From contig NZ_CP073754.1 of NCBI RefSeq assembly GCF_018734325.1, positions 1,798,001 through 1,862,000 on the forward strand: DNA of 64,000 nt, in the 5' to 3' direction. This stretch comes from Methylomonas paludis (GTDB lineage: Bacteria; Pseudomonadota; Gammaproteobacteria; Methylococcales; Methylomonadaceae). The notes under the pieces are model-generated. The model was not told the origin of the DNA, did not search any database, and was given only the letters and a program-made list of their open reading frames with translations. Of the stretch, positions 1-47,988 are shown piece by piece (the stretch's first letter is position 1; every line of letters starts with the position of its first letter). The translations under genes and the position numbers were made by a program.

Positions 1-528
1 GAAACGTAAAATATGATCCCTCCCTGATAAGAGTCACCTTTTTTATGAATGGTGACCCCTATACCCGCAGGGCCTTGTATACCCTGAGTGCCGCGAGGCC
101 CTGCTGGGCCTTGTACGCCTTGAGGGCCACGAGGACCAGCCGGGCCTTGAGAACCTGTTGTAACTGCTTGAGCAGTAGTAATAAATAGCGTTACTAATGC
201 CAGCATTTCAGTGAGTCGCTATTTTTGCGAAAGCTTGTTTAGGGGCATCCCAGCCCCAACAAGCGGCAAAAATTACGCGACCGCTAATGCCTCCGGCGGC
301 CCCGATTCGTCCTCCTCACCTCGTTCCGACCCAACAAGGGGATCGGAACTTCGGCTCCAAGTGACTTGACGGCGTTTCGCGATGCCTTGCAGGTTTTCTC
401 CGCTTCGCTTCGAAAACCCGCCCGGCGCTACGCCTATCGGGGACTAAAAATCTTCGCTCCACTTACGTTCCGCTTCCAAGATTTTCAGCGGAAGCAATTG
501 TTAGTGGTTTTAGAGTTTTGTTTAACAT
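1..528 (-). pseudogene. Collagen-like exported protein, split by 277-bp element, partial at left edge
   Basis: Read on the minus strand, the part next to the window edge encodes Gly-X-Y triplets ([19 protein letters not shown] and onward), then [19 protein letters not shown], a start typical of the domain that follows bacterial collagen-like stalks. A short ORF begins at 206 ([14 protein letters not shown]). Removing the 277-bp element at 208-485 joins it in frame to an ATG at 528, giving MLNKTLKPLTIASAEMLALV followed by TLFITTAQA, a normal Sec signal peptide. The element has therefore inserted inside the signal sequence. The start at 528 has only a weak ribosome binding site. The protein is probably secreted or surface exposed. 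The collagen frame is certain; the joined start is inferred. Whether it is still expressed, for example from the ATG at 206 or after RNA processing, cannot be told. Confidence 0.6.
208..488 (-). mobile_element. 277-bp structured element, copy 1
   Basis: One of four copies (others at 38435-38715, 43734-44014, 47708-47988). It is bounded by TCAG at 208-211 and 485-488, giving a net insertion of exactly 277 bp. The strand given is the direction of the interrupted gene (element reads CTGA-AAATC...CTCACTGA). Strong inverted repeats suggest a folded RNA or ssDNA: 234-263 (CTTGTT, GGGGC / GCCCC, AACAAG), 323-349 (GTTCCGA / TCGGAAC), 392-418 (GGTTTTC / GAAAACC) and 447-485 (AAAATCTT / AAGATTTT). There is no ORF of note. 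The flank on the gene's 5' side is CGCTGA, as in the other copies. It splits the collagen-like gene. Confidence 0.85.
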
Positions 529-758
529 AATCAAACGCTTTTATTTATAAGATGGGGTCTTGACGCAATAATTAGGCACTATGCTTCTTGGGCATTATCC
601 AAGATTATACGGGTAAAGATGCGTAGCGCAAAATGCACTTAATTCCAATTGTCAATAAGCTATTAAAGGCCTTTACTGTGATCTTTATCCCGTTAGGCCC
701 TTACAAAAAGCGATTTTGTGGTCCATATCCAAGCAACTGTAGCCACTGGCCCGGGTGT

Positions 759-1976
759 TTATTGCAATTGCCCAAGTTCCAATCGCCTCAGCTTTGGCGC
801 CAGTTTTGCCGTTGCACCCACCACGATCAAGGTCATTGTGCCGCCAAAAATCACCGAAGGTACCAGCCCCATCAGACGTGCAGCGATGCCGGATTCAAAA
901 GCACCCAACTCATTAGACGAGCCGATAAAGATGCCGCTGATCGCAGAAACCCTGCCGCGCATGGCATCCGGAGTGGCTAGTTGCAAGATAGTGCTGCGCA
1001 ACACCACGGATACACCGTCGAACACGCCTGACAATATCAAGAGTAAACCGGCAAGCCAAAAATTCACAGACAGGGCAAAGCAGATCATGCTAATACCAAA
1101 ACCGGCCACTGCCGCCAGCAACCACTTGCCGGTATGGCGGTGGATGGGATTACGGGCCATATACAGCCCGGTCATCACCGCACCAATGGCCGGAGCAGCG
1201 CGGAGTATGCCCAGTCCTTCCGGGCCGTAATGATAGACATCATGAATGAAAGCCGGCAGCAAAGACACGGCACCGCCAAACAGTACTGCAAACATGTCCA
1301 GAGATTGCGCGCCCAGGATGATTTGATTGCTGAATACAAACCGGAAACCCTGGCCGATACTGGTGGCGATGGATTCGCTGATCTCGGATTTGGGGATTTT
1401 AACGCGTATACTTAGCAATGCAGTGGCCGAACCTAAACATAAGCCAGCCGCCACACCATAGGCCGAGATTTTACCGGCCCAAGCAACCAGTATCCCGCCC
1501 AAGGCCGGCCCTACCACCAAGCCAAACTGAAATACTGAAGTGGCAAATCCCGCTGCTCTTGCATACCGGTCACGGGCTACCACTAAAGCAAACATGGCGC
1601 TGAAGGTGGGGCCAAAAAATGCTCTGGCCAGACCAGTCAAGCCAATAGAGCCATATATCCACCATAAAATATTATCGCCTAGCCAGCCTGCCGAGATGGC
1701 GGCCAGGGTCAGCGCATTACCAAACAGCAGCAGACAGGCCACTACGCCAAACAATCGGCGGGAATAATGATCTATCGCATACCCGGCAAACAAAGCTGAA
1801 CAGAAATAAGCAATCGCCTCGGTCAAACCGATCAGACCCAGGGCCAGTGTGTCATGAGTCAGTTCGTAGATGTGCCAGCCAACTACCGTAGCGATGATCT
1901 GGTAGGCCAATACTATCAGGATACGAAACGATAATAGCTTATAAAAGTTGCCATTCGAGTGGCCGGATATTTGCAT
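759..1976 (-). CDS. MFS transporter
   Basis: This 405-residue protein has about twelve hydrophobic segments across its whole length, the layout of a major facilitator superfamily exporter. It begins MQISGHSNGNFYKLLSFRIL and lacks a cleavable signal. Segments such as GWHIYELTHDTLALGLIGL and the loop DHYSRRLF match the MFS_3/enterobactin-exporter-like branch, where the loop between helices 2 and 3 carries a conserved basic stretch. Substrate is not predictable; members of this branch export siderophores, drugs or other small molecules. It stands alone, on the same strand as the mlaA-like gene but separated from it by 86 bp, and no operator of the type seen elsewhere in the window precedes it. 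Confidence 0.85.
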   Translation of the reverse strand: MQISGHSNGNFYKLLSFRILIVLAYQIIATVVGWHIYELTHDTLALGLIGLTEAIAYFCSALFAGYAIDHYSRRLFGVVACLLLFGNALTLAAISAGWLGDNILWWIYGSIGLTGLARAFFGPTFSAMFALVVARDRYARAAGFATSVFQFGLVVGPALGGILVAWAGKISAYGVAAGLCLGSATALLSIRVKIPKSEISESIATSIGQGFRFVFSNQIILGAQSLDMFAVLFGGAVSLLPAFIHDVYHYGPEGLGILRAAPAIGAVMTGLYMARNPIHRHTGKWLLAAVAGFGISMICFALSVNFWLAGLLLILSGVFDGVSVVLRSTILQLATPDAMRGRVSAISGIFIGSSNELGAFESGIAARLMGLVPSVIFGGTMTLIVVGATAKLAPKLRRLELGQLQ

Positions 1977-2062
1977 ATTTAAAGGTTAAATAAAACGGCA
2001 CGAAGCAGGAAAGCAACTGTCGTGCAAATCAATTGCAGTGTTAGCGCCAACCTATCCGAGCA

Positions 2063-2944
2063 TCAATGCTTTTTCTGAATAGGCAGTACATCAACCGTGG
2101 CTTTTTTCCCGGTGGCTGGAGCACTGTTGGGTGCATTACTTGGCGTTTTATTCAGGGCGCTATCAATGTCGTCGGAACTGAGCGGATCGTCGCTGGTTTC
2201 TTCTTTACCGTCTTCGATCAAATACTGGCGATGCTGCAAATAAGAATTTTTGATAAATTCATAGCGGTTGCCGTTGCTGCCTTCCTCCATCACTTTTTCG
2301 GCAGGAATCAGGTCGGCGCGCTTGCCGGTGGCATTGACCACACCCGCCCCTGTGGAAACCATAGACCCGGTAAAGCCGCCAAAAATAGAAAAATAGGTGA
2401 GTGGATTCATAAACGCATCGCCGATTAAACCGATGGTATCACGTGGATTACTAGGACCCAGTACTGGCAATACCATGTACGGCCCGGATGGAACACCCCA
2501 GACGCCTAAACTTTGGCCAAAATCTTCGTTGTGTTTGGGCAAGTCTAAAGAACTAGCCACATCAAACAGGCCAGCCACACCCACTGTGGAGTTTATTATA
2601 AAGCGACTAACATCCATACCACCATGCAAAAATTTTAATTGTAAAAAATCATTGATACTGACATCGATGTCGTTAATATTGCTGAAAAAATTGCGTACAC
2701 CTGTATCTATGGTGGCGTTGGTAACATTGACATAAGCTTCGGCTACCGGCTTGAAAATGTGTTTGTCCAAACTGTCGTTCACCGACTGGGTGCTCTTATT
2801 CCAGCTTTCCCAAGGATCAGAATTTTTGGTTTGTTTAACCGGCTGGCTGGAGCAGGCACTTAATAATAAAAACGCTGATAAGTTAGCTGCGTACAGGGCG
2901 GGAGTAAAACAGGTTTTTTGCCTAACCATGCCAGATTTAGTCAT
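2063..2944 (-). CDS. mlaA: MlaA/VacJ-family outer-membrane lipoprotein
   Basis: The product is a lipoprotein with a lipobox (LLLSACSS) followed by the conserved MlaA opening DPWESWNKSTQSVNDSLDKH and the segments FFSNINDIDVSINDFLQLKF and FGQSLGVWGVPSGPYMVLPV. MlaA removes phospholipids from the outer leaflet of the outer membrane together with OmpC/F-type porins and passes them to MlaC. The C-terminus (from about residue 225) is an Ala/Pro/Ser-rich tail not needed in the family. An ATG at 2944 is chosen over a TTG at 2965 because it leaves a compact N-region before the hydrophobic core. The rest of the Mla system (mlaBCDEF) is not nearby, which is common for mlaA. Confidence 0.9.
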   Translation of the reverse strand: MTKSGMVRQKTCFTPALYAANLSAFLLLSACSSQPVKQTKNSDPWESWNKSTQSVNDSLDKHIFKPVAEAYVNVTNATIDTGVRNFFSNINDIDVSINDFLQLKFLHGGMDVSRFIINSTVGVAGLFDVASSLDLPKHNEDFGQSLGVWGVPSGPYMVLPVLGPSNPRDTIGLIGDAFMNPLTYFSIFGGFTGSMVSTGAGVVNATGKRADLIPAEKVMEEGSNGNRYEFIKNSYLQHRQYLIEDGKEETSDDPLSSDDIDSALNKTPSNAPNSAPATGKKATVDVLPIQKKH

Positions 2945-3021
2945 GTTGATTGAGTTGGCTCGCAATGCCTTTAAAATTTAGAAATACCCGGTTTAAGCCC
3001 CAGGGCTGGGAAGTGTTACAT

Positions 3022-3086
3022 TAGGAGCCTATCCAATAATAGAAAACCTACCCTCGCTACGGCTTCTATTCTCGGACAAGCTCCTA
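3022..3086. terminator. Long hairpin at the 3' end of mgtA
   Basis: TAGGAGC (3022-3028) pairs with GCTCCTA (3080-3086), and inside it AATAGAA-type and TTCTATT-type arms pair again, giving a long stem-loop that includes the mgtA stop codon. It has no strong T-run, so it is a probable rather than certain terminator; it could also be a dispersed palindromic repeat. Confidence 0.4.
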
Positions 3087-5660
3087 GCTGATGTTAGGAT
3101 GTTTTAACCGGTACCAACGATAAAAACCCATTTTGGCCAGTTCAACAATAGCCAGATAAACCACCACCATAATCGCCAGAATGACATAAAACCGGGCCGG
3201 TGGCGGTACAAAACCGAAATAGGCTCCCACCGGTGTAAAAGGTAGCGCGGCAGCAATGGCCACTATAGTCAACGAGGTCGCCACCAGAATCGGGTGAGCG
3301 CGACTTTTAAACGGATTACCTCGAGTACGGAGGATAAAAATCACCAGAACCTGAGTACACAGCGATTCCACAAACCAACCGGTCTGGAACAGGGTTTCAT
3401 CAGCTTTTAGTACGGTCAGCATAACATAGAAGGTCAAGAAATCGAACACCGAACTGATAGGCCCTATCACCAGCATAAAATTCCGGATAAAATTCATATC
3501 CAGCACTCGGGGGCGGCGCAAGTCTTCGGTATCCACTTTATCCAGTGGAATAGGCACTTCGGACAAATCGTAAAGAATATTGTTGAGCAAAATCTGAGTA
3601 GGCAGCATGGGTAAAAACGGCAGAAATAATGCGGCCCCAGCCATGCTGAACATATTGCCGAAATTTGAGCTGGTACCCATCATGATGTATTTCATGATGT
3701 TGCCGAAGGTGCGCCGGCCTTCCAGTACCCCCTCATACAAGACATTTAAATCCTGATCCAGCAAAATCATGTCGGCAGCTTCCTTGGCCACATCCACCGC
3801 CGAATCCACCGACAGGCCAATATCGGCAGAATGCAGAGAAGGGGCATCATTGATGCCGTCGCCCAGATAGCCTACAACGTGACCACGGGCTTTCAGGGCC
3901 AGAATTACCCGGTCTTTCTGCGAAGGGTTAACCCGGCAAAACAGATTGGCCGTTTCCACCCTGGCGCGTAGAGCGTAATCGTCCATTTGTTCAATTTCTT
4001 TGCCGGTGAGGATACCTTGCACCGGGATATTAAGCTGGGTGCAGACATGCTGGGTAACCAGTTCGCTGTCGCCGGTGACTATTTTGACGCTGACGCCGCT
4101 GTCCTGCAAGGCTGCCAATGCGGCACCGGCACTGGCTTTGGGTGGATCTAGAAAACCGGCAAAACCAGTAAACACCAGCTCTGCTTCGTCACCGATTACT
4201 GCATGAGGATGATCGGCCGGCACTTCCCGCCAGGCAATGCCCAATACCCGAAAGCCCTCGGATTCCAGGGCAATGTGTTGGGCATGAATACGCGCACGGG
4301 CTGTTTTGTCCAATGGCAACGAATTACCTTGATCTTCGTAATGGGTACACAAGGTAATGATTTCTTCAGATGCGCCTTTCACGATCAGCAGCCGGCCATT
4401 GCCTTTGTCCAGTAACACAGAGACCCGGCGACGTTCGAAATCGAAAGGTACTTCGTCAATTTTTTGCCAGGCGCTGATGTCGAAACTGGTATGAGCCAGG
4501 ATAGCTTCATCCAGTGGACTTTTTAAGCCAGATTCGAAAAAACTATTTAAATAAGCCAGTTCCAGCACCCGTGGGCTGGGGTTGCCTTGCGGGTCGATAT
4601 GTTGTTCCAGGTGAATTCTGGCTTCGGTCAAGGTACCGGTTTTGTCGGTACACAGCACATCCATCGAGCCCAGGTTCTGGATGGAAGCCAGCCGTTTGAC
4701 GATGACCCGTTTACGAGCCATGTGGATAGCGCCGCGTGATAGCGTGACAGAAACCACCATCGGTAACAGCTCCGGTGTCAGACCCACTGCCAGCGCTACC
4801 GCAAACATGAATGATTCCAACCAAGGTTTGCCTAACCAGGCATTGACTAGCAAAACAAATAACACCAACAAAATGGTCAAACGCATGATCAGCAAACCGA
4901 ATCGCTGGGTGCCAACTTCAAAAGCGGTGGGTGGAGCGCGGCGAGTCAGGCTGTCGGCAATGGCGCCGATAGCGGTAGTAGCCCCGGTTTTTACTACCCG
5001 CATCCGGGCGCTGCCGCTAATTACAGTAGTACCCATAAATACGGCGTTAGTGGCATCCTGGATATCATCGGCGCTAGCGGCCAGCGAACCCGGATGTTTT
5101 TCCACCGGATAGGATTCGCCAGTCAGCAGAGATTGCTTGATGAATAAGTCACGAGCAATCAATACCAAACCGTCTGCCGGAATCATGTCGCCGGCTGACA
5201 GCGTCACCAGATCGCCGGGTACTACCTGAGTGACTGGAATTTCGATAGATTTACCATCGCGGATTACTGTGGCGCGAATGGAAACCGACTGGCGCAGGCT
5301 TTCAGCGGCTTTGCCGGCGTTGTGTTCCTGCACAAAATCCAGCGTTACACTCAGGATCACCATGACAAAGATGATGACAAAATTAGTCAGTTCGCCGGTT
5401 AATGCCGAGATGGCACTGGCTACCAGCAACAGTAATACCAGCGGGTTTTTAAAGCGGGCCAGAAATTGCAGCAACAGCAGCTGTTTTTTGTGATCGCGTA
5501 ACTGATTGGCGCCAAATTTAGTCAGGCGCTGGGCGGCTTCGTTTTGGCTCAGGCCGTCAGCATCCCCGGCCAGTGCTGCCTGCGCATCGAGCGGACTTAA
5601 CCACCAAGCCGGATTTTGTGGTGTGGGAGGCGCTTTGGCTCGGAAAATCGATTTATTCAT
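3084..5660 (-). CDS. mgtA: Magnesium-translocating P-type ATPase
   Basis: About 858 residues, close to the usual size of MgtA/MgtB (about 900). P-type ATPase marks are all present: the actuator loop LLTGESYPVEK, the phosphorylation site DKTGTLTEARI, and the hinge GDGINDAPSLHSADIG. The N-terminal cation ATPase segment (WWLSPLDAQAALAGD...) and a C-terminal block of membrane helices fit the P3B group, which imports Mg2+ across the inner membrane using ATP. ATG at 5660 is chosen; a GTG at 5678 in the same frame is the alternative and neither has a clear Shine-Dalgarno. A CRP-spaced palindrome lies upstream (5785-5800). No convincing Mg2+ leader peptide was recognised in the 270-bp upstream gap. 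Confidence 0.93.
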   Translation of the reverse strand: MNKSIFRAKAPPTPQNPAWWLSPLDAQAALAGDADGLSQNEAAQRLTKFGANQLRDHKKQLLLLQFLARFKNPLVLLLLVASAISALTGELTNFVIIFVMVILSVTLDFVQEHNAGKAAESLRQSVSIRATVIRDGKSIEIPVTQVVPGDLVTLSAGDMIPADGLVLIARDLFIKQSLLTGESYPVEKHPGSLAASADDIQDATNAVFMGTTVISGSARMRVVKTGATTAIGAIADSLTRRAPPTAFEVGTQRFGLLIMRLTILLVLFVLLVNAWLGKPWLESFMFAVALAVGLTPELLPMVVSVTLSRGAIHMARKRVIVKRLASIQNLGSMDVLCTDKTGTLTEARIHLEQHIDPQGNPSPRVLELAYLNSFFESGLKSPLDEAILAHTSFDISAWQKIDEVPFDFERRRVSVLLDKGNGRLLIVKGASEEIITLCTHYEDQGNSLPLDKTARARIHAQHIALESEGFRVLGIAWREVPADHPHAVIGDEAELVFTGFAGFLDPPKASAGAALAALQDSGVSVKIVTGDSELVTQHVCTQLNIPVQGILTGKEIEQMDDYALRARVETANLFCRVNPSQKDRVILALKARGHVVGYLGDGINDAPSLHSADIGLSVDSAVDVAKEAADMILLDQDLNVLYEGVLEGRRTFGNIMKYIMMGTSSNFGNMFSMAGAALFLPFLPMLPTQILLNNILYDLSEVPIPLDKVDTEDLRRPRVLDMNFIRNFMLVIGPISSVFDFLTFYVMLTVLKADETLFQTGWFVESLCTQVLVIFILRTRGNPFKSRAHPILVATSLTIVAIAAALPFTPVGAYFGFVPPPARFYVILAIMVVVYLAIVELAKMGFYRWYRLKHPNIS

Positions 5661-5784
5661 GGTTGTTTTTGAATTCACTGTGCGGCAATCAGGAAGGTCA
5701 TACGGCCAAGGTCTGATAGTGATTCTTCAACATTAATGCCTTGGCTTTGAATGTTAAATGTTAACGGGGGAATACGATAAGGTC

Positions 5785-5800
5785 TGTACGGCATGACACA
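5785..5800. promoter_or_regulatory. Putative operator upstream of mgtA
   Basis: TGTACG-GCAT-GACACA, 16 bp, a partial match to the window-wide palindrome TGTNCG-N4-CGNACA. It lies about 125 bp before the chosen mgtA start. The left half is exact and the right half degenerate. Confidence 0.4.
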
Positions 5801-5934
5801 TAACATGACCAGCCCTGGTTTTGGACCAGATGACGGTAAAACACAGCAAAACACAGTACAAAAGATTTGTGTTTAACCTATAAAAAATATTAAATATATT
5901 ACATTAGTTATTGTTTTATAGTGAAAAGTTAGAA

Positions 5935-6669
5935 TCAAGCCGCGCTGGCTTTAACTGTGGGTAAATAGGCCAGCAGTCGATCCGATTCGGCTTTGACCAC
6001 TTGGTAACATTCACAGACTCTGTGCTCAATGCCAGGACGATCACTCACCAGAATGTGACCGCGGCTGTATTCGATCAGACCGGCGCGCTGCAGATTTCCA
6101 GCGGCTTCGGTAACGCCCTCCCGGCGCACACCCAGCATATTGGCGATCAATTCCTGAGTCATGTTCAATTTGTTGGAGTCCAGGCGATCCAGACTCAGCA
6201 ACAGCCAGCGGCATAGCTGCTGATCGACGCTATGATGACGGTTGCAGACTGCGGTTTGGGCCATTTGGGTAATCAGGGCCTGAGTGTAACGCAGTAACAG
6301 GTGCAGCATGACGCCGTAGCGGTTAAATTCTCTCATCACCTGCTGGACCTTGATGCGATAGGCATAGCCGGCGCTTTGCACGACGGCCCGGTTGGGCATG
6401 GTGTCGCCGCCCATGAACAGGGCGACACCGATAATGCCGTCATTGCCGACTACGGCGATTTCCGCAGAAGCGCCGTTTTCCAGCACATATAATAGTGAAA
6501 CGATGCAGGTGGTAGGGAAATAGGCATAGCGTAATTGTCCGCCGGATTCGTATACCACCTGGCCCAAAGCCATATCAACCCGTTCCAGAAACGGTAAGAG
6601 TCGGTCAAATTCTGCCGCCGGAAGTGAATCGAGCAGGTGGTTTTTTCTTTGGCTATCAAGATCAGTCAT
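5935..6669 (-). CDS. Crp/Fnr-family transcriptional regulator
   Basis: The 244-residue protein has an N-terminal cyclic-nucleotide-binding-like beta barrel (about 20-130, with LGQVVYESGGQLRYAYFPTT and EIAVVGNDGIIGVALFMGG) and a C-terminal winged helix (about 165-225) with the recognition region MLGVRREGVTEAAGNLQRAG. It lacks the N-terminal cysteines of FNR and does not keep the full cAMP-binding set of CRP, so its signal is unknown. This subgroup is common next to stress and phosphoketolase-type genes in proteobacteria. A candidate operator with CRP spacing sits 87 bp upstream, hinting at autoregulation, and similar sites precede many genes in this window. That this protein binds them is inference. 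Confidence 0.9.
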   Translation of the reverse strand: MTDLDSQRKNHLLDSLPAAEFDRLLPFLERVDMALGQVVYESGGQLRYAYFPTTCIVSLLYVLENGASAEIAVVGNDGIIGVALFMGGDTMPNRAVVQSAGYAYRIKVQQVMREFNRYGVMLHLLLRYTQALITQMAQTAVCNRHHSVDQQLCRWLLLSLDRLDSNKLNMTQELIANMLGVRREGVTEAAGNLQRAGLIEYSRGHILVSDRPGIEHRVCECYQVVKAESDRLLAYLPTVKASAA

Positions 6670-6755
6670 AGTTTTATATATAGAGTTTAATAGTCGGATT
6701 CAATCGATTTAGCTGGGCTGTCAATAAAGTTTAAAAGCTTATCCAACGCCTGCTC

Positions 6756-6771
6756 TGTGCGGTACACCACA
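6756..6771. promoter_or_regulatory. Putative operator upstream of the Crp/Fnr gene
   Basis: TGTGCG-GTAC-ACCACA, left half exact and right half degenerate relative to TGTNCG-N4-CGNACA. It is 87 bp upstream of the regulator's start codon on the minus strand, consistent with autoregulation. Confidence 0.4.
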
Positions 6772-6907
6772 TAAGCTAATGTCATCATATCAGCTTTACC
6801 AATAAGGCAAACTAATTTCATTAAAATACAAGATGTTATTGCTGATTTATCAGTTGAAGAAAGACTGCGGATTAACGCTTATTTGTCGAAACAGCAGGGA
6901 GTTTATA

Positions 6908-6923
6908 TGTGTTGCAGCGTACC
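6908..6923. promoter_or_regulatory. Putative operator upstream of smbP-like gene
   Basis: TGTGTT-GCAG-CGTACC, an imperfect match to the TGTNCG-N4-CGNACA palindrome, 160 bp before the smbP-like start codon. Confidence 0.35.
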
Positions 6924-7082
6924 GATTTAAGGGCAAATTCCTGATAAGGTCGTGCCGAAGTACTGGAAAAACCCAGTCCTTTTTCATAGCTGAACCGGCT
7001 GTGACAAAACCCGCCACGGCCTATGCCTCAATTCGCATAGCCGACGGCCACCATTATTAGAAATATTTAACAGGAAAACCAA

Positions 7083-7400: not shown

Positions 7401-7408
7401 TTATGGTT

Positions 7409-7440: not shown

Positions 7441-7451
7441 TCTTGGGCTAT

Positions 7452-19968: not shown

Positions 19969-20109
19969 GTTCTCTGGAATTTATGGTCAAGGATGAATGG
20001 CAATGCTGGAACAACTATTGCAGCCACTGCATAAACGCATTCAATTCAGAAAACCTCTCTCGGCTATTATTGCCTAAATCCTGAAAATGTAAAATCAGGC
20101 TAATCGTTC

Positions 20110-20700
20110 TTGCAAGCGGGTCGCGATGAGGCTGGCTATGGTTATACGGTTGAGGGTATTGTTGAATTGGGCTGGCTTTGGTTTGATTGAGGCTGCGCGG
20201 TGAATTCCTCGATTCCACTGCGTTGCATCGAGGCTACGGGTGGCGATGATGTAGGTTATGGTTATACGGTGGGCAGGGTTGAATTGGGCTGGCCTTGGTT
20301 TGATTGGGGCTGTGCGGTGAATTCCTCGATTCCACTGCGTTGCATCGAGGCTACGGATGGCGGTGATATTGGTTATGGTAGACCATTGCGTGGCGTGGTT
20401 GAATTGTGCTGATGCTGGTTTGATTGAGGTTGTGCGGTGAATTCCTCGATTCCACTGCGTTGGATCGAGGCTACGGGTGGCGATGATGTAGGCTGTGTTT
20501 GCGGGTGTTTTGCGATAGCTAAACACCAAACACCCGCGAAGTTTTGGTGGCTTGCCTGGCGGCGAAGCCACCCTACATGGTGGTCGCTTTGATTAAGGCC
20601 ATGTTTGCGTTAATGGTTGATTTTGGTTCAGGCGGTGGAGGATGTTGTTGAATTGCGCTGGCTCTGGTTTGATTGAGGCTGTGCGGTGAATTCCTCTACG
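20110..20700. repeat. REP-like hairpin array with about 120-bp spacing
   Basis: CCTCGAT...ATCGAGG hairpins start at 20207, 20323 and 20443, and a truncated unit stands at about 20692. Units also share GGTTTGATTGAGGCTG and GAATTGGGCTGG segments. A copy of the 66-bp repeat (20523-20588; other copy 9613-9678) lies inside. Because the period is near a multiple of three, ORFs up to 158 codons stay open across it, but these are not genes. Confidence 0.8.
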
Positions 20701-20723
20701 GGGCTGACCCCATTTTTTCGCTT

Positions 20724-20739
20724 TGTGCGCTAACAAACA
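20724..20739. promoter_or_regulatory. Putative operator upstream of the phosphoketolase operon
   Basis: TGTGCG-CTAA-CAAACA, one mismatch to TGTNCG-N4-CGNACA, 176 bp before the ATG at 20915 that begins the probable 20915-24509 operon. Confidence 0.45.
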
Positions 20740-38204: not shown

Positions 38205-38733
38205 TTATTTTTGGCAATTATGCGTTTTGGCATAACCTTTACAGGTTTCAGCTTCATGTTCATTAGCTTGTACAGAGTGACCCTGGGCAATATGGGCATG
38301 ATGTGCTGCACCTTTATGGTCATCACTGGCATGCAGTTTGGCTGCTTCGGTGTGATGTTTGGCTGCTTGCACATGCTGTTCGGCAGCTTGTTCATGATGT
38401 TCCTGTTGTTGAACTTTACCGGCTTGTTCTTTTATCAGTGAGTCGCTATTTTTGCGAAAGCTTGTTTAGGGGCATCCCAGCCCCAACAAGCGGCAAAAAT
38501 TACGCGACCGCTAATGCCTCCGGCGGCCCCGATTCGTCCTCCTCACCTCGTTCCGACCCAACAAGGGGATCGGAACTTCGGCTCCAAGTGACTTGACGGC
38601 GTTTCGCGATGCCTTGCAGGTTTTCTCCGCTTCGCTTCGAAAACCCGCCCGGCGCTACGCCTATCGGGGACTAAAAATCTTCGCTCCACTTACGTTCCGC
38701 TTCCAAGATTTTCAGCGATTGTGGTTGTGACAT
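38205..38733 (-). pseudogene. Small His/Ala-rich protein gene split by the 277-bp element
   Basis: From the ATG at 38733 (GGAAATAAA ribosome site) the frame reads MSQPQS and is then broken by the element at 38435-38715. On the other side the frame continues IKEQAGKVQQQEHHEQAAEQ, HVQAAKHHTEAAKLHAS, GAAHHAHIAQGHSVQANEH and ends ETCKGYAKTHNCQK. Excising exactly 277 bp restores an 83-residue protein in frame (MSQPQSL-IKEQ). The His-rich heptad pattern is typical of small stress- or metal-related proteins seen in Legionella and methylotrophs. An operator-like site is 91 bp upstream. Confidence 0.75.
38435..38715 (-). mobile_element. 277-bp structured element, copy 2
   Basis: TCAG at 38435-38438 and 38712-38715, net 277 bp, apparently identical to copies 1 and 4. 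It splits the His/Ala-rich gene, in the same orientation relative to the gene as copies 1 and 3. The gene-sense 5' flank is TCGCTGA. Confidence 0.88.
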
Positions 38734-40443: not shown

Positions 40444-40459
40444 TGTGTGGTAGCGCACC
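40444..40459. promoter_or_regulatory. Putative operator upstream of ompA-like gene
   Basis: TGTGTG-GTAG-CGCACC, two mismatches to TGTNCG-N4-CGNACA, 123 bp before the ATG at 40582. Confidence 0.35.
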
Positions 40460-40581
40460 GATAAGGCGGCGATTTTGCAGTTAAGGTGGCAATTAGATTT
40501 GGTATAAAAAACCAATTCAAAAATTTAATCCGGCTCTGCTGAACTCCGTGCCCGCTGTTAATTGTCCTCAAGGAAAGAATT

Positions 40582-41607
40582 ATGCTGAAAAAAACTACTC
40601 TGACTATCGCTTCACTGATCGGCGTTAGCTGCTTACCTCAAGTTCAAGCGGCTGAACAAAGCCTGGATAATCGTTGGTATGTAGCCCCTTTTGCTTCTTA
40701 TGTACAAACCGGTGGTGACCGTAATGCTGATAACGGTTGGGGTGGCGGTCTGGGTATCGGTAAAATTATCGATCAACATTTCAATGTGGAACTAAAAGGG
40801 TTCTATGAAGGCTTCGGCGGCAAAAACGGCTCTTGGAGTCTGGCCGGCGGTACTGCTGATTTGCAATACTATTTTATGCGGGAAAAATTCTCGCCTTATG
40901 CGGTGGTTGCCGCCGGCGGTATGAATAGCTGTGTTGGGGGTAATTGCGGGGCTGGTGTGATTGGCGAAGCCGGTCTGGGTTTTACTTATGAGCTGGATGA
41001 CAATTTTCTGTTGCGGAGTGATGTCCGTTATCGGTACAACAATAATTTGAATAACCATGTGCAAACCGGCACTGATCAATTTAATGATATGACGGTTAAT
41101 GTGGGCTTTGTGATTCCGTTTGGTGAGAAACCCAAACAGGTTTCCAGAGCTGAAGTGCGCGTGCAACCGGCTCCGGCTCCGGTTTTGGCTACACCGGCAC
41201 CGGCTGTCGATCCGTGCCATGGCCGACATTACAAAAGCAGTCATGTTGATGCTAATGGCTGCCCGGTAAAAATTGTTCTGAAGGGTGAGCATTTTAAATA
41301 CGACTCTGCTGAATTGCAGCCTCCTGCAAAAGCAATTTTGGATAGTCTGGCCAAAGATCTGATTGCCGATCCGCAAAAAACTGAAGTTGAAGCAAAAGGT
41401 TATGCCAGCAGCGAAGGCGGCGCCAGCTATAATTTACGTTTGTCGGAACGCCGGGCCAAGTCTGTGGTTGAATATCTGAAAGCTAAAGGCGTGACCAATA
41501 AATTGATCGCCAAAGGCTTTGGTATCGCTGATCCGATTGGTGATAATAGTACCGAAGCAGGTAGAGTGGAAAACCGCCGCGTGGAATTGATTTGGATTGA
41601 ACAATAA
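40582..41607 (+). CDS. OmpA-family outer-membrane protein
   Basis: 341 residues. A Sec signal (SLIGVSCLPQVQAAEQ) leads into an eight-strand-type beta barrel (about 25-180, starting RWYVAPFASYVQTGGDRNAD), a Pro/Ala linker (QPAPAPVLATPAPAVDP) and a C-terminal OmpA peptidoglycan-binding domain (about 225-340, KGYASSEGGASYNLRLSERR and GVENRR-type ending AGRVENRRVELIW). It ties the outer membrane to the cell wall. A strong CAAGGAAAG ribosome site precedes the ATG. Surrounding BON and DUF883 genes suggest an envelope stress function. Confidence 0.92.
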   Translation: MLKKTTLTIASLIGVSCLPQVQAAEQSLDNRWYVAPFASYVQTGGDRNADNGWGGGLGIGKIIDQHFNVELKGFYEGFGGKNGSWSLAGGTADLQYYFMREKFSPYAVVAAGGMNSCVGGNCGAGVIGEAGLGFTYELDDNFLLRSDVRYRYNNNLNNHVQTGTDQFNDMTVNVGFVIPFGEKPKQVSRAEVRVQPAPAPVLATPAPAVDPCHGRHYKSSHVDANGCPVKIVLKGEHFKYDSAELQPPAKAILDSLAKDLIADPQKTEVEAKGYASSEGGASYNLRLSERRAKSVVEYLKAKGVTNKLIAKGFGIADPIGDNSTEAGRVENRRVELIWIEQ

Positions 41608-41622
41608 CATCCGCTATTGATG

Positions 41623-41717
41623 TATAAAGTTCTCCTTGCTGGGGAGCTTTATACAGCTTATTTTTATTCATCAGTTCCAGTAAATTTTCTAAAAGTGCCG
41701 CTTTTTTGCAACGGCAC
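41623..41717 (+). terminator. Two hairpins after ompA
   Basis: TATAAAG (41623-41629) with CTTTATA (41647-41653), and GTGCCG (41695-41700) with CGGCAC (41712-41717). The first is 16 bp after the stop codon and is followed by TTTTTATT about ten bases later. A probable terminator region. Confidence 0.55.
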
Positions 41718-41784
41718 CTTCATAGCGACGGCATTTTTAAACAGAACCGCTCGACTCAGCAGCCGACAGATGCCTCAAGCATTT

Positions 41785-41897
41785 CGCAGCCTATTCCAGT
41801 ACCAAATACTTAGCTTTCATTGATGCGCTGCACTCCGTTTAGCACATCCTACATCCTTTTGTTTTTTAAAGTAATACTTGGTCGATGCCTGGTTACA
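41785..41897. repeat. MITE-like repeat, degenerate
   Basis: Contains GATGCGCTGCACTCCGTTTA, one change from the shared core, and a right end GGTTACAA; the left terminal repeat is poorly kept. No gene was recognised between 41717 and 42068. Confidence 0.5.
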
Positions 41898-42068
41898 ATT
41901 TGTTAATCTCAAAGCTGTAGTCTGGCCCATCCTTTCTGCTGTTTGGCTTTAAATTCAAAGTGATTTAAGTCGGTTTGGATAAGCTGGTTTAATTTTTTAC
42001 GGGATCAATAGGTATAATGCTGGTTTGGGCTATACACTTGCCTCCCTATCAATCTGGAGTAAAACATT

Positions 42069-42962
42069 ATGGGATTAAGTAAATATCGTTCTATTTTTTC
42101 TGCCTCGACAGGCCAGGAAAGGATAGAGAATTTTGAAAATTACTGGACTTTTACCCAGCAACACGGGGGGCAGTTATTAGAAGCGGAACAGGACTTGGCG
42201 AAAAAGCGCGCCAGACTGCAGTATTTTAAAGATCATCCGGTTAGATTACGCAAGCCATTGGCTAACCCTGATGCTTTTTACCGCAATTATGTGACGATGA
42301 AAGATGATCCTAAGTCACTCGATCAGTTGACCTTAATGCTGACAGGTATTTACAAATTTGCCAGACATGAGTGGGTTGGCATCAAGGCGGCATGGGATGT
42401 GGTGCCTGATATGGCTAATTCACATAGTGTTGAAGATAAGATCAGCCGGGTGCATTTGGCTGAAGAGTTTTGTCATTGGCGGTTATTTGATGAGATGCTC
42501 AGAACCTGTGGACTGGATCAGGTTAAATGGGAGCCTTTGACCCCTGTTAAGGAATGGATTTATCAGCAGTTTCCGCGTTTGCCGGGCTTTTTGATGGATA
42601 CGCCGGCTTTTGTCACTGAATTGATGGGGGTGACGTATTATTTCCATTTGCATCGCTTATTTGATGATTTGCTGCATGATGAACCGGAAGTGCGTGATCG
42701 TTTAAAAGAGTTACTGGACGAAATTACCATAGACGAGATTGCCCATGTTGGGCAGCGCCGGAATTTTATTGGCCCCATCGGTATCTGGATATCACGACAA
42801 TTGGTTAAGCCTTTTTATACTCTATTTTTTAAGGATATTCCCGAAATTGGCTTGTTATTTGATATCAATAAAATGATAAAACACGGCGAAGCTTTTGATT
42901 TTAATGAAGTACCAGATTATATGGTAGCGCGAACCTGGATACCATCGTACTGCAAGGTATAG
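42069..42962 (+). CDS. Conserved protein, possible ferritin-like diiron fold
   Basis: 297 residues, soluble, mostly helical, preceded by a TGGAG site. No family was recognised with certainty. Two motifs look like a carboxylate-bridged metal site: HLAEEFCHWRLFDEM (E-E-x-x-H) and DEITIDEIAHVGQRRNF (E-x-x-x-x-E-x-x-H type), separated by about 100 residues as in ferritin-like or hydroxylase four-helix bundles. It is neither a known methane monooxygenase subunit nor a bacterioferritin. Monocistronic, between ompA and the ice-binding pseudogene. The diiron reading is inference. Confidence 0.6.
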   Translation: MGLSKYRSIFSASTGQERIENFENYWTFTQQHGGQLLEAEQDLAKKRARLQYFKDHPVRLRKPLANPDAFYRNYVTMKDDPKSLDQLTLMLTGIYKFARHEWVGIKAAWDVVPDMANSHSVEDKISRVHLAEEFCHWRLFDEMLRTCGLDQVKWEPLTPVKEWIYQQFPRLPGFLMDTPAFVTELMGVTYYFHLHRLFDDLLHDEPEVRDRLKELLDEITIDEIAHVGQRRNFIGPIGIWISRQLVKPFYTLFFKDIPEIGLLFDINKMIKHGEAFDFNEVPDYMVARTWIPSYCKV

Positions 42963-43120
42963 TCCTTGATCTACCAACCAGGATCGCCCCGAATATGCAG
43001 CGCTAAAGAAAAATAGTGATTATTTTCAGTCATAAGTACCAGCCGTAAGGTCTCTAAAGTGCCGGTTTTTTCCGCCGGCACGTCGCACATGATGCGGATA
43101 TGTTCGCAAGCATTCAGGTA

Positions 43121-43136
43121 TGTGCGATAGCAAACA
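43121..43136. promoter_or_regulatory. Putative operator upstream of ice-binding gene
   Basis: TGTGCG-ATAG-CAAACA, one mismatch to TGTNCG-N4-CGNACA, 77 bp before the ATG at 43213. A second left half-site (TGTTCG) is at about 43101. Confidence 0.45.
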
Positions 43137-43212
43137 GACATAACCATACTAATTCTATAGTCTTTTTGTGACATCAGCCCGTCGTTGATGCTTAACTTTA
43201 AGGTCTTATTCT

Positions 43213-44415
43213 ATGAAAATATCGAAACGTTTGCTCATATTGCCATTTACGGTTATCGGGGCAATGGCGGCAGCGCCGTTATGGCTACACCTTTGCTGGA
43301 TGCAGATTTGGCAAGTTATGCCGTGTTGGGGGCTTCTACAGTTACCAATATTCCGAATAGCAGCGTAGCCGGCAATGTCGGTGTCTGGTCTAGTGGCGGC
43401 TCAAACGCCATTACTGGTTTTATATCTTCACCAGGCAATAGTAAGACCGATGGCCAAGTTAGCGGTGGTACTGTGCAGGCCGGTACTACCTCGGGTGTTT
43501 CGAATACCATGCAGGCGCAATTGCAACTTACCTCGGCCATCAATAATTTGTCTTCATTAGGTATTGGCACCCTGGAACCTGCTGATCTGGGCGGTTTGAC
43601 TCTAACACCAGGTGTTTATACTGTACCGGCCGGCACCACCAATTTATCCAGCACGCTGATACTGGATGGTCAGGGCAATGCCAATGCTACCTGGGTGTTT
43701 GAATTACCCAGTACGCTGATTACCTCACCTTCGCTGAAAATCTTGGAAGCGGAACGTAAGTGGAGCGAAGATTTTTAGTCCCCGATAGGCGTAGCGCCGG
43801 GCGGGTTTTCGAAGCGAAGTGGAGAAAACCTGCAAGGCATCGCGAAACGCCGTCAAGTCACTTGGAGCCGAAGTTCCGATCCCCTTGTTGGGTCGGAACG
43901 AGGTGAGGAGGACGAATCGGGGCCGCCGGAGGCATTAGCGGTCGCGTAATTTTTGCCGCTTGTTGGGGCTGGGATGCCCCTAAACAAGCTTTCGCAAAAA
44001 TAGCGACTCACTGATCTCATCAGTGCAAATCATCAATACCGGCACTCACGCGGGGGTTTTCTGGAATGTCGGCAGTTCGGCGACCATTGATAACAACACC
44101 ACTTTCTTGGGTAATATCCTCGCTCATACCAGTATTACTTTGAATACCGCCGCCAGCGATGTTTCCGGTCGTTTGTTGGCATCAACCGGTGCCGTTACCC
44201 TAAGTCAAAATATTTTGTCTCAAAGCAATGGCGGCTTGAGCGGAGGTTTAAATGTCTCCAGCTTTGGCAATGTTAGCTTTTTGCCTTTTGCTCCGGTCAC
44301 CAGCGTACCTGAGCTATCTACCTACCTGCTTTTGCTGCTTGGCGCCGCAGTCATTTGGTTGCAATCGGGCAAACCAGTCAAAGTGTCGGGCGATTTTGCC
44401 GAACTTTGCATTTAA
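43213..44415 (+). pseudogene. DUF3494 ice-binding protein with PEP-CTERM-like tail; frameshifted and split by element
   Basis: From the ATG at 43213 a clear signal peptide reads MKISKRLLILPFTVIGAMAA, but the mature part lies in another frame (ATPLLDADLASYAVLGAS, then TVTNIPNSSVAGNVGVWSSG), so one base is missing near 43275. The ice-binding domain is then cut by the 277-bp element at 43734-44014 (ITSPSL then LISSVQIINTGTHAGVFWNV) and continues with NNTTFLGNILAHTSITLN. Removing 277 bp and adding one base gives 308 residues. The C-terminus (VPELSTYLLLLLGAAVIWLQ) is a PEP-CTERM-like sorting signal with PEL for PEP. Such proteins bind ice outside the cell. The frameshift means it is probably dead whatever the element does, unless it is a sequencing error. 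Confidence 0.85.
43734..44014 (+). mobile_element. 277-bp structured element, copy 3
   Basis: CTGA at 43734-43737 and 44011-44014, net 277 bp, inverted relative to the other copies in window coordinates but in the same sense relative to the gene it splits. It differs from them by one base seen (T at 43820). The gene-sense 5' flank is TCGCTGA. Confidence 0.88.
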
Positions 44416-44715
44416 GCGTTACCCTGGCTGCAATCTAAATAACGCATGCTTGGATATTTAGGCCGTCCAGTATTCAGCAGGCGTTGCTTTAAGGGTTAAC
44501 GGCTGAAAGGCAGTTTAACTATCCACAAACTAATAGCAGAAATTGCCGAACCTACTTATTTCACCAACTAAAAGCATCGTCGGTATGTTCGAAACCGCAC
44601 AGACTCTTTCCCACTAAAGGCGCTAAAGTTTTTATTAGCGCCGATTTTTCTCTAGCGGTTGCCTAAAACTGCTTTTGCAGTTGTTATTCCATCCCCCCAA
44701 TTCCAAGGAAGCACC
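44416..44715. other. Intergenic region before BON lipoprotein gene
   Basis: 300 bp without a gene. It holds the operator at 44586-44601 and a GGCGCTAAAG / CTTTAGCG-type inverted repeat around 44620-44645 that could end transcripts from the ice-binding gene. Confidence 0.5.
44586..44601. promoter_or_regulatory. Putative operator upstream of BON-DUF1207 operon
   Basis: TGTTCG-AAAC-CGCACA matches all ten fixed positions of TGTNCG-N4-CGNACA, 115 bp before the ATG at 44716. Confidence 0.55.
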
Positions 44716-45144
44716 ATGAAAATCGTCCAAACCCCACAATCCGTCATGCTGGCCGTGAGTTTAATCAGTGCCGTAGTGGCTTTGACTGCCTGCGAAAAAG
44801 AGGGCACAGCTGAAAAAGCCGGTGCAAAAATCGATCATGCCGCTGAAAAAGCCGGCAACGAACTGGACAAAGCCAAGTTATCAATCAATCAAAAAGCCGA
44901 AACGGCTGATGTTTATATTGATGATTCGGTGATTACCGCTAAAGTCAAGGAAGCCATTCTGGCTGACGCTATTTTGAAAGTCGGCCAAATTGAAGTGACT
45001 ACGGTGAATGGGGTGGTTAAATTATCCGGTAAACTGGCTTCGGCACAACAGGTCAACAAAGCAATTGAGTTGGTCGGCAGCCTGAAAAACGTCAAATCTG
45101 TCACTAACGATTTGAGTTATCCGGCCGACACTACCGGTAAATAA
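44716..45144 (+). CDS. BON-domain lipoprotein
   Basis: 142 residues from the ATG at 44716 (site AAGGAAG). Lipobox VALTACEKE; then a charged helical linker (EKAGAKIDHAAEKAGNELDK) and one BON domain (VYIDDSVITAKVKEAILADA, VTTVNGVVKLSGKLASAQQV). It is of the same type as the BON lipoprotein at 39917-40231. The stop is one base from the next start, so it is co-transcribed with the DUF1207 gene. Confidence 0.85.
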   Translation: MKIVQTPQSVMLAVSLISAVVALTACEKEGTAEKAGAKIDHAAEKAGNELDKAKLSINQKAETADVYIDDSVITAKVKEAILADAILKVGQIEVTTVNGVVKLSGKLASAQQVNKAIELVGSLKNVKSVTNDLSYPADTTGK

Positions 45145-45145
45145 T

Positions 45146-46291
45146 ATGAGTGCCTTACCCTTTCTGCGAGTTGCTGCACTTTTGCTGCCGGTCACTTGTG
45201 TCCAGGCTGTCACCAGTGATGATGCTTATTTGTCCGGTTACGCCACCGGTGTGTTAAATCACGAATTAAGACTGGATTTACCGGCTTTGCAGGTTAACGA
45301 TGGGGTAATCATTTTACCGATGCAAAGTCTGGCGAAAGAAAATCAGACCAGAGCTGCCCACATTTTGGCGGAAATTCCCGGTATCAAAGCGGTCAAACTT
45401 TCGCAATCAGCCGATCAGCAACCTGCCGGCAGCATCACCACGACTACTGCAGCTGCGACGGCTGTGGCCGGAAGCCAGACTAGTAGCTATTCCACGCAAA
45501 CTGAGTTATTACCCACGGGAATATTACCGGTTGGGCTATTGTTTAAGCCTTTGATCGCCGATCCGCGCTGGGCGCATTTTTCTGCTACTTATCGCAATTA
45601 TCAAAGTAATAATTTTGTGGGCCGTGATACGGTATCAGTGAGTTTTGGTGAAACTATTCCTTTTTATCGGGGTAATTTAGGTAAATCCAGTGTGCAATGG
45701 GAAACGGGTATGCAGGCCGGGGTGTTTAGTGACTTTAATATGGATACTGCCTCGCATGATCTGGTTAATACCGATTTTATTGCTTCGGGGTATGGCAGTT
45801 TGCGGGCTGGTCAGTTTTCGCTGTTTGGTCGGCTTTATCATCAAAGCTCGCATGTCGGCGATGAGTTTTTACTCAGTAAGTTAAATACCAACTTTCAGCG
45901 GGTGAATTTAAGTTACGAAGGCAGCGATTTAAAACTGTCTTATGAACTGCCTTATGGGGTGAGGGTTTATGGCGGTGGCGGCGGTATTGTTGATAAGGAT
46001 CCGTCTACTCTTAAAACCTGGTCCAGCCAGTACGGCATGGAGTTTCGCAGTCCTTGGCTGTTGGATTTTGGCGGGATGCGGCCTATTGCGGCGGTGGATA
46101 TCAAAAACTTTCAGCAGAATAACTGGGCTTCCGATTTATCGGCCAGGGCCGGTGTTGAATTTAATAATCGGCAAATCTGGGGCCGCAAACTGCAAATACT
46201 GGCTGAATATTATGATGGTTACACGCCTATCGGTCAGTTTTATAAAGATAAGGTGCAATACCTGGGTTTAGGTGCGCATTTTCACTTCTAA
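45146..46291 (+). CDS. DUF1207-family outer-membrane protein
   Basis: 381 residues with a signal peptide (LRVAALLLPVTCVQAVTS). Residues 25-95 form a short BON-like region (YATGVLNHELRLDLPALQVN). The rest matches DUF1207: LLPTGILPVGLLFKPLIADP, RWAHFSATYRNYQSN, SVSFGETIPFYRG, and alternating hydrophobic strands to the C-terminal FHF, typical of an outer-membrane beta barrel. Having BON-like and DUF1207 parts in one chain, right after a BON lipoprotein, suggests they act together in the envelope. Function unknown. Confidence 0.82.
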   Translation: MSALPFLRVAALLLPVTCVQAVTSDDAYLSGYATGVLNHELRLDLPALQVNDGVIILPMQSLAKENQTRAAHILAEIPGIKAVKLSQSADQQPAGSITTTTAAATAVAGSQTSSYSTQTELLPTGILPVGLLFKPLIADPRWAHFSATYRNYQSNNFVGRDTVSVSFGETIPFYRGNLGKSSVQWETGMQAGVFSDFNMDTASHDLVNTDFIASGYGSLRAGQFSLFGRLYHQSSHVGDEFLLSKLNTNFQRVNLSYEGSDLKLSYELPYGVRVYGGGGGIVDKDPSTLKTWSSQYGMEFRSPWLLDFGGMRPIAAVDIKNFQQNNWASDLSARAGVEFNNRQIWGRKLQILAEYYDGYTPIGQFYKDKVQYLGLGAHFHF

Positions 46292-46330
46292 CAAGCTGAC
46301 TATCCCGGCCTATGTGCCGGGCGGGTATTT

Positions 46331-47305
46331 ATGAACTTTATCATTTTTTTTAGGCTGGTCATTGCCGAATATGATGTCCTGGCTATTAATGAGCATAGCG
46401 GCTTTGTTAGGCTCAGGTCTTATATTGCTGGATTTACTGTGCTGATTTTTATGTTTGTTGGCATGGCAAGTAGTGTCAGGGCGGATGATCAGCCTGAGTT
46501 ATCGGCACTGGTAGTAGGATCGGCCAATCCCGAACATCATGTCGGTAAATTTATTTTTGCTGAATTGGCAACTTCGGATCTGAGCAAAGCCGAACGCTTT
46601 TACGCCGACTTGTTCGGCTGGAGCTTTCGCGAAGTTAACATTGCCGGTAAGCAATATGCCGAAGCTTCAATTGCCGGCCATCCGATAGCCGGATTAGTAC
46701 AAAATAGCCAGCACTTGCCTTCCTGGTTGAGCTTTATTGCAGTTGATGATGTGGAAGCTTACAAAACACAGGCTCTGGCACATGGCGCTAAGCTGTTATC
46801 GGCTCCGCAAACTGTGCCGAAAAGAGGCCAGCAAGCGGTATTTATTGATCCGCAGGGCGCTGTGTTTGCTGTGCTGGCAGCTGACGGCGGTGATCCAGCA
46901 GATCAATTAGCGCTACCTGGGGAGTGGATATGGAGTTCTTTAATCACTGGCGACCCGGAGGGTGCGGCCGCGTTCTACCAAAACCTGTTTGAGTATGAGG
47001 TATTTGAATTGGCTGCCGATCCAGGCACCCAACATTTACTGCTGGCCACTGACAATTATGCCCGAGCCAGTGTTAATTCGCTGCCTGCCGATACCCCCAA
47101 TATGCATGCCCATTGGCTGAATTACATCCGGGTTGATGACGTACCTGGCGCAGTTGCCAAACTGACCAGTTTGGGCGGCAAAGTCCTGATACCACCCAGG
47201 CTGGATCGTCACGGCGGGAAGCTGGCTGTGGTTGCCGATCCGGCGGGTGCGGTATTCGGTATTTTGGAATGGCCGGAGAGCGACAGCAAAGTGGTGAAGC
47301 AATGA
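46331..47305 (+). CDS. VOC-family protein with N-terminal signal sequence
   Basis: 324 residues. A hydrophobic segment near 30-55 (YIAGFTVLIFMFVGMASSVR) looks like an export signal. Two vicinal-oxygen-chelate domains follow: KFIFAELATSDLSKAERFYA (about 72-180) and EWIWSSLITGDPEGAAAFYQ (about 195-310), each with the FYxxLFxW/E pattern. The family includes glyoxalases and dioxygenases, but metal ligands are not clear in either half. It follows the DUF1207 gene after a CCCGGC/GCCGGG hairpin (46304-46321). Confidence 0.82.
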   Translation: MNFIIFFRLVIAEYDVLAINEHSGFVRLRSYIAGFTVLIFMFVGMASSVRADDQPELSALVVGSANPEHHVGKFIFAELATSDLSKAERFYADLFGWSFREVNIAGKQYAEASIAGHPIAGLVQNSQHLPSWLSFIAVDDVEAYKTQALAHGAKLLSAPQTVPKRGQQAVFIDPQGAVFAVLAADGGDPADQLALPGEWIWSSLITGDPEGAAAFYQNLFEYEVFELAADPGTQHLLLATDNYARASVNSLPADTPNMHAHWLNYIRVDDVPGAVAKLTSLGGKVLIPPRLDRHGGKLAVVADPAGAVFGILEWPESDSKVVKQ

Positions 47306-47679
47306 TTAAGCTATACGGATATGTCACTAGGCGCCATCTGGTTATTGGTCTGTTATGTCTGCTGCCAAATGCTTGTGTCGATACCGGCGGCGGTTATGGC
47401 TATGGTTATAATAGCGGTTACGGTAATGCATATTACAATCCTGGCTATAACGGCGTGGGCATTGTCGGCGGCTACCCTGGCGGAAACTGGCGACCCGGCT
47501 ATCAGGTAGGACCGTATCGGGGCGGGCAGGGCGGTGACCATGACCGCAATCATCAACGTGGCGATGCTGGTGGCGGTGGCGAACACGGCTATCGATCTGC
47601 GCCGGCCTCACGGCCTATGCCGTCTATTCCCTCCGGGGGCCATGCTGGCGGCGTTGGCGGCGGTGGGCACGGACGTTAA
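47302..47679 (+). CDS. Gly-rich lipoprotein
   Basis: 125 residues from the ATG at 47302, which overlaps the VOC stop (ATGA). The lipobox is LLPNACVDTGG, followed by Gly/Tyr/Asn-rich repeats (GGYGYGYNSGYGNAYYNPGY) and an Arg/His/Gly tail. It is low complexity without a known domain. It resembles the Gly/His/Tyr-rich exported protein at 60215-60550. Probably periplasmic or surface. Confidence 0.7.
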   Translation: MIKLYGYVTRRHLVIGLLCLLPNACVDTGGGYGYGYNSGYGNAYYNPGYNGVGIVGGYPGGNWRPGYQVGPYRGGQGGDHDRNHQRGDAGGGGEHGYRSAPASRPMPSIPSGGHAGGVGGGGHGR

Positions 47680-47707
47680 AATATTTGGTAGTTATTCGAC
47701 GTGAATT

Positions 47708-47988
47708 TCAGTGAGTCGCTATTTTTGCGAAAGCTTGTTTAGGGGCATCCCAGCCCCAACAAGCGGCAAAAATTACGCGACCGCTAATGCCTCCGGCGGC
47801 CCCGATTCGTCCTCCTCACCTCGTTCCGACCCAACAAGGGGATCGGAACTTCGGCTCCAAGTGACTTGACGGCGTTTCGCGATGCCTTGCAGGTTTTCTC
47901 CGCTTCGCTTCGAAAACCCGCCCGGCGCTACGCCTATCGGGGACTAAAAATCTTCGCTCCACTTACGTTCCGCTTCCAAGATTTTCAG
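47708..47988 (-). mobile_element. 277-bp structured element, copy 4
   Basis: TCAG at 47708-47711 and 47985-47988, net 277 bp, apparently identical to copies 1 and 2. It lies 29 bp after the Gly-rich lipoprotein gene and before a REP-like array. No interrupted gene was found around it. The 5' flank in the element's sense is AACGCTGA. Confidence 0.88.

Follow-up and report, generated by a model that had tools for sequence, protein, structure and literature searches.

A folded, non-coding family of mobile elements in Methylomonas paludis and other Methylococcales

A 64-kb window of the Methylomonas paludis genome (the whole stretch analysed, positions 1,798,001-1,862,000 of the contig) holds four of the 23 full copies of a 283-bp element. 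The element represents a family that is recently or actively mobile, non-coding and conserved in its fold, and its insertion route fits none of the known elements with which we compared it. Our tentative interpretation, held with less than even confidence, is that of a non-autonomous, fold-recognised element family of the Methylococcales for which a single-strand HUH/Y1-like enzyme serves in trans as the mobiliser.

The 23 full copies, far more than chance would yield, were recovered by BLAST from the single contig of 3,673,651 bases (E-values 3.9e-152 to 4.1e-143), together with two decayed pieces at genome positions 1,685,443 and 2,221,875. The unit reads CGCTGA...CTCACTGA. Over a 278-base stretch, measured in the sense that starts with CGCTGA, 19 of the 23 copies are identical and only four versions exist overall; one copy carries a substitution, two share another, and one lacks a base. 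The flanks are mutually unrelated and terminal inverted repeats are absent from the 283-bp element. In the window, copy 1 (208-490, with the CGCTGA end at 490), copy 2 (38435-38717) and copy 4 (47708-47990) are on the minus strand and copy 3 (43732-44014) is on the plus strand. The core RNA model scores 177 bits for copy 1 (at 288-448) as well as for copies 2 and 4, and 174 bits for copy 3, which differs from the others by a single base. No open reading frame (ORF) above 54 aa overlaps copy 1, and copies 2 to 4 are nearly identical to it. Once joined, the flanks of copy 1 yield an open frame of 238 aa and those of copy 3 one of 315 aa, while copy 2 seems, by eye, to disrupt a short reading frame at its start, this frame being restored once the element is removed. 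The first-pass annotation of the window had already described four ORF-free copies at these places, in differing flanks and with one base difference in the third, all of which is confirmed on the sequence. Its length of 277 bp omitted the left hexamer, and the ends have been extended to the coordinates given here.

The boundaries of the element could be defined by comparison with empty sites. For 16 of 121 copies, the flanks that remain upon excision of the element match, when joined, an uninterrupted homologue among the loci compared, and 11 of these 16 alignments cross the junction without a gap within 12 columns. In the cleanest case (L014) the joined flanks match a paralogous site of the same genome with 99.6% identity over 226 columns, and those of L062 match M. 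fluvii with 94% over 236; several other gapless matches are only 74-82% identical or lie in repeats. Among the five gapped alignments, one is false as it matches the element's own locus (L196), one is gapped in the right flank, beginning at base seven (L011), and in three a gap of one base lies some way to the left of the junction (L020, L074 and L275). Two insertions in Methylotuvimicrobium buryatense (L214, L244) lie within 7-base tandem repeats, the phase of which, by eye, is kept across the junction. Insertion is exact, with neither target duplication nor target loss. The hexamer CGCTGA, which had been taken for a fixed target, is the element's own left end, because it is absent from the empty sites. 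A control at 80 sites, which places the element boundary only modulo three, gave 18 ORFs at exact removal, 19 at a shift of +3, 17 at +6, and 10 to 13 at other shifts.

The target rule was derived from 122 copies, de-duplicated by sequence, in which the left end has at most two substitutions from CGCTGAAAATC.TGGAA and the right end follows one of two patterns. Among the 121 copies with enough left flank, which come from many genomes, base -4 of that flank is a C in 115 cases; strongly diverged subtypes lie outside this count. For the M. paludis copies alone, the figure is 22 of 23. Position -5 avoids C (6 of 121) and positions -2 and -1 weakly favour T. The right flank of the 121 copies shows no base signal comparable to the C at -4. 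At the right side, the corresponding C resides within the element itself: it occurs at -4 from the end in 35 of the 37 members of one alignment (A2), in which the right ends of singleton members were set by analogy and the starts of two rows (L238 and L088) are poorly anchored. The last four bases are CTGA in M. paludis, as had been noted for its right end, but relatives end with CCGA (G009, G018, G031), CCGG (G011, G023, G027), CTTG (G032 and one M. buryatense type) or CCTG (G013). As judged from this sequence pattern, which is not a cleavage assay, both junctions obey the rule CNNN^. By eye, no link was seen between a variable loop dinucleotide and the NNN of the target; when 19 M. buryatense copies are compared, two of the 14 columns that vary are in the loop.

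The fold is conserved far beyond M. paludis. For 31 of 41 representatives, RNAalifold gave -151 for the CGCTGA strand and -127 for its complement. In the core alignment of 36 sequences, compensatory double changes occur in 23 of 37 pairs. Pairing is retained in 96.0% of the cells, compared to 83.1% upon shuffling and at most 45.8% with the partner slid; the slid control is flattered as the structure came from the same alignment, and the shuffles are flattered by related sequences. These alignments took 37 (A2) and 36 (core) of 40 selected members. In the 35 core pairs with a Watson-Crick consensus there are 46 G-T but only 16 A-C cells, and in the right hairpin P6 there are 29 and 5, respectively. 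Because G-T pairs outnumber A-C pairs in both regions, the CGCTGA strand is the folded strand under selection. The covariation is equally compatible with RNA and with single-stranded DNA. The M. paludis sequence alone adopts the same fold (-123.4 kcal/mol, z -4.4; complement -99.7, z -3.4).

The predicted layout starts with an unpaired C and hairpin P1, whose closing GCTG/TAGT is invariant and hence without covariation, followed by stem P2 (CCCCGAT/ATCGGGG) which encloses P3-P5. Next come a small hairpin (GCC-GNA-GGC), then P6 as the long hairpin on the right, and a tail ending with CNNN. In copy 3, on the plus strand, the target tetranucleotide with its single fixed C is at 43728-43731, the predicted P1 at 43733-43779, the multibranched core P2-P5 at 43780-43922, P6 at approximately 43935-44007, and the element's own terminal CTGA at 44011-44014. 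The core is the most conserved part, supported by covariation and represented by model R1, while P6 is swapped among subfamilies. The first-pass view of a folded, non-autonomous and recently mobile element with a one-sided target rule and no target duplication is upheld.

Of 101 genomes of the order that were searched, M. paludis included, 49 contain relatives of the element (DNA search, E <= 0.001, with at most seven candidates scored per genome); outside M. paludis, identity is about 70% to 92% among the matches listed. When GTDB genomes were screened with a core pattern, which was built from the same lineages and which distant kin would escape, 85 stretches were obtained. Genus-named records belong to Methylomonas, Methylotuvimicrobium, Methylomicrobium, Methylicorpusculum and Methylobacter, the others being metagenome-assembled genomes labelled Methylococcaceae, Gammaproteobacteria or uncultured proteobacterium. 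The element was not found in viral contigs (two patterns) or phages (blastn). Three plasmids, from Methylomonas or Methylobacter, do carry it. A core pattern matches 29 times in M. buryatense 5G, and in G032 eight of 11 matches are on a 289-kb contig which has the size of plasmid CP157006.

By eye, members of the family are modular: the conserved core is combined with left hairpins of differing kinds, and on the right with one of four or more hairpins. Copies which seemingly lack the right half were inspected at 16 loci, most of which have a diverged right half or coincide with the end of a contig or locus; L215 and L227 as well as the right ends of L203 and L247 depart from the element early. 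In one M. fluvii copy (L225) the loop hairpin P4 seems, by eye, to be inverted with respect to other copies, like a flipped palindrome. In three M. buryatense copies (L228, L257, L279) the left end is replaced by identical foreign sequence, which may represent either an insertion or a variant form of this end. A literature search, which covered the leading matches, returned no publication that deals with the 283-bp element by its title.

In the mechanism that we tentatively favour, a trans-acting enzyme would bind the fold of the CGCTGA strand and cut it twice, once behind the CNNN of the left flank and once behind the terminal CNNN of the element, and the freed strand would then be joined behind a new CNNN. 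Such cleavage would follow the scheme of single-strand HUH/Y1 transposition, except that the cleavage site is almost degenerate. Exact insertion, the C at -4, the terminal CNNN, hairpins at both ends, covariation, and six Y1-type matches in the M. paludis genome (two of them below the Pfam cut-off) all argue for such a mechanism. In the M. paludis fold, the terminal CTGA pairs with four bases that directly follow the small hairpin, 5′ of P6, an arrangement that would suit a guide. According to PMC8266576, IS200/IS605 and REP (repetitive extragenic palindromic) enzymes pick their cleavage sites via bases on the 5′ side of hairpins, with some flexibility in the case of one REP enzyme.

Several observations weigh against a HUH/Y1-like enzyme. 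Plain antiparallel guide pairing at the right end does not hold across 37 members, where it was found in 74 of 148 cells, with a shuffle mean of 79.8; because this form of pairing is unsupported, we have slightly lowered our confidence in this mechanism. There is a single fixed target base while known IS200/IS605-type relatives have four to five. An enzyme that binds the ends leaves unexplained why conservation is highest in the core and why the right hairpin is swapped among subfamilies. No enzyme with the element's ends was found among the transposase, reverse transcriptase (RT) and TnpB loci examined. The only candidates of the HUH/Y1 class found are the six Y1 genes, which we read from weak matches as probably RAYT-like, given their size and the repeats next to them, and none is linked to the element. 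Loci L286-L289 carry REP-like repeats unrelated to it, L118 and L285 show no more than a palindrome or short repeat, and a single element copy lies near a Y1 locus (L020, beside L289), where it is inserted into the REP-like repeats of that locus.

A replication-strand orientation bias is also lacking, with 48 versus 42 copies in seven genomes, a count which omits eight plasmid matches of G032 and six matches of G011, a genome without a dif match. The dif site was located by a consensus pattern, for which seven of eight genomes gave a match with 3 mismatches; the GC skew of M. buryatense loci flips sign near dif and opposite dif, as expected. G018 alone shows an orientation of 8 versus 1 (p 0.039). 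A hand count of fork orientation in six genomes had given about 34 of 61, and the computed count is the figure used. With respect to position, all 23 M. paludis copies are within 0.598 of the half-genome from dif (Kolmogorov-Smirnov p 2.7e-4). Such clustering is weaker in G018 (n=9, p 0.03) and absent in G013 and G046, and so terminus clustering is not a general rule. The M. paludis copies span 0.95-3.15 Mb, the dif-centred 60% of the chromosome.

A TnpA/TnpB-type element with the same ends, as envisaged by the first-pass annotation, did not come to light: none of the six Y1 matches has the element's ends, and PF07282 (TnpB-type) has no match in the M. paludis genome, IscB not having been the aim of any search. 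There is also no match to PF04986 in this genome. When the core model was applied to 92 transposase, RT and TnpB loci, clear matches were restricted to five loci (L289, L299, L115, L130 and L154), each of which looks like a neighbour, an insert or a host of other elements. At L299 (G011), an RT between two element copies was considered as an autonomous retroelement but is taken to belong to a cluster of mobile debris; the interval contains a group II-type RT frame and, by eye, a putative domain-5-like stretch, and the first copy seems, again by eye, to be inside an IS1595-type gene. At L115 (G063), the copy sits at the break between two parts of the Y1 match and is probably an insertion.

Copy 4 adjoins a cluster of ~120-bp repeats. 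By eye, such clusters, which have a GTAGCCTCGATGCA...-type palindrome, occur at 20027-20737, 48028-48523 and 58948-59503 of the window, and they resemble the repeats beside the Y1 gene at L288.

The main rival to a HUH/Y1-like enzyme, unlikely in our view but to be taken seriously, is mobility at the RNA level. A transcribed folded RNA, either a ribonucleoprotein or a ribozyme, would be inserted or copied into DNA, similar to a bacterial short interspersed element (SINE) or a minimal intron. In its favour, covariation is strong and of the RNA type, the G-U pairs falling on one strand, and the lack of duplication and the upstream-only target rule also suit reverse splicing. It accounts better for the conserved core but worse for the lack of a suitable RT: there are two RVT_1 matches in the M. 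paludis genome, one retron RT_II-A-like and one bAvd-associated, neither of which resembles the RT of a group II intron. Further points against it are the absence of Rfam intron or ribozyme matches, of a gene-direction bias (23 sense versus 25 antisense among 48 frames in 117 sites), and of a sigma-70-like promoter in window positions 150-550 (0.4 expected by chance). As to the two RT loci themselves, L310 (3,236,400-3,241,000) has retron RT_II-A as its best PADLOC match and an upstream NDT_II-A protein, and thus resembles a retron-like pair. At L314 (3,429,000-3,433,500) the RT is accompanied by a bAvd gene and an Lcl_C/PEP-CTERM protein, probably representing a diversity-generating retroelement.

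Also unlikely, though it deserves mention, is a new class of mobile element, SINE-like or ribonucleoprotein in nature, where a folded nucleic acid would be recognised mainly via the conserved core of ~140 nt, as an RNA or single-stranded DNA domain, with interchangeable right hairpins and a one-base target rule, and would need neither a self-encoded enzyme nor any known partner. We give somewhat less credit to a site-specific recombinase, or another enzyme class, which acts on the folded strand in an integron-like manner. Lack of duplication, a folded single strand and a single-base rule are in its favour, but the ends have no GTT-type crossover site when inspected by eye, no search having been aimed at recombinases.

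That an IS110/IS1111-type DEDD recombinase acts in trans, using the element RNA as a bridge or seek RNA, seems improbable. The M. paludis genome has three IS110-type matches, there is no long duplication, a structured non-coding RNA is at hand, and one copy (L091; G056, 2990-4489) carries an IS110-family transposase gene, being the only copy with a gene inside among those compared. This gene lies between the core halves, where an ordinary insertion would place it, and neither the IS110 protein search of 101 genomes nor a BLAST comparison of the 30 loci taken from it (L130-L159) gave a second two-sided case: a two-sided element is found only at L130, which is the same place as L091, and L154 has a one-end piece. 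We therefore read L091 as an insertion and rejected IS110 as the mobiliser. The element is absent from two of the three M. paludis IS110 loci, which were inspected; the one-base target rule does not look guide-like, and no dinucleotide core is common to both ends. An internally deleted ordinary insertion sequence (IS), a miniature inverted-repeat transposable element (MITE) with lost parent and incidental fold, is very improbable. In its favour, no parent with the same right end was found in the M. paludis genome (the 23 exact matches are the element copies, and one further match has 3 mismatches), but inverted repeats and duplications are lacking and the reading is disfavoured because the core covaries in 36 diverged members.

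Short bacterial repeats are often dismissed as decayed transposons. The element described here has deep covariation, its ends and empty sites are exact, and it has spread in recent bursts. M. buryatense is a methanotroph with laboratory genetics and, as the element is present there, the question of the mobiliser is open to direct test. If an enzyme cleaves behind CNNN and tolerates nearly all sites, it would itself be of interest.

When compared to known systems, the element shares with HEARO/omega-RNA, bridge RNA and group II introns a conserved structured RNA that is tied to mobility, but differs in having no Rfam match and no linked nuclease, recombinase or RT found. The HEARO/omega-RNA habit proposed in the first-pass annotation is not borne out: the window has no Rfam match at gathering thresholds, and window positions 150-550 gave, at E up to 10, only a frameshift-element model far below its gathering score. 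No IS110/IS1111 element with the same ends was encountered among the loci compared, and there is no support for reading the element as a HEARO, a group II intron or an IS110 derivative. With Correia and ERIC MITE-like sequences the element has in common that it is short, non-coding, dispersed and folded; it lacks the terminal inverted repeats, TA ends and target duplications which PMC2229807 gives for most sequences of this type. REP/BIME sequences with their RAYT (TnpAREP) enzymes are likewise dispersed folded repeats for which Y1-type enzymes are present, and a flexible cleavage site of one enzyme (PMC8266576) adds to the likeness. In contrast to these, our element has no GTAG-headed hairpin unit but is 283 bp long with fixed ends, and the RAYT-like genes of M. 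paludis sit with other repeats. From IS200/IS605, the habit of which had also been proposed initially, it differs by having one fixed target base rather than a tetranucleotide, by its large covarying core, by the lack of a strand bias and of simple right-end guide pairing, and in that M. paludis has no strong tnpA match but only weak, RAYT-like Y1 genes. What stands is the junction logic, as in both cases there is no duplication, the left cleavage site is outside and the right one inside the element, insertion occurs 3′ of the site, and hairpins are found near both ends.

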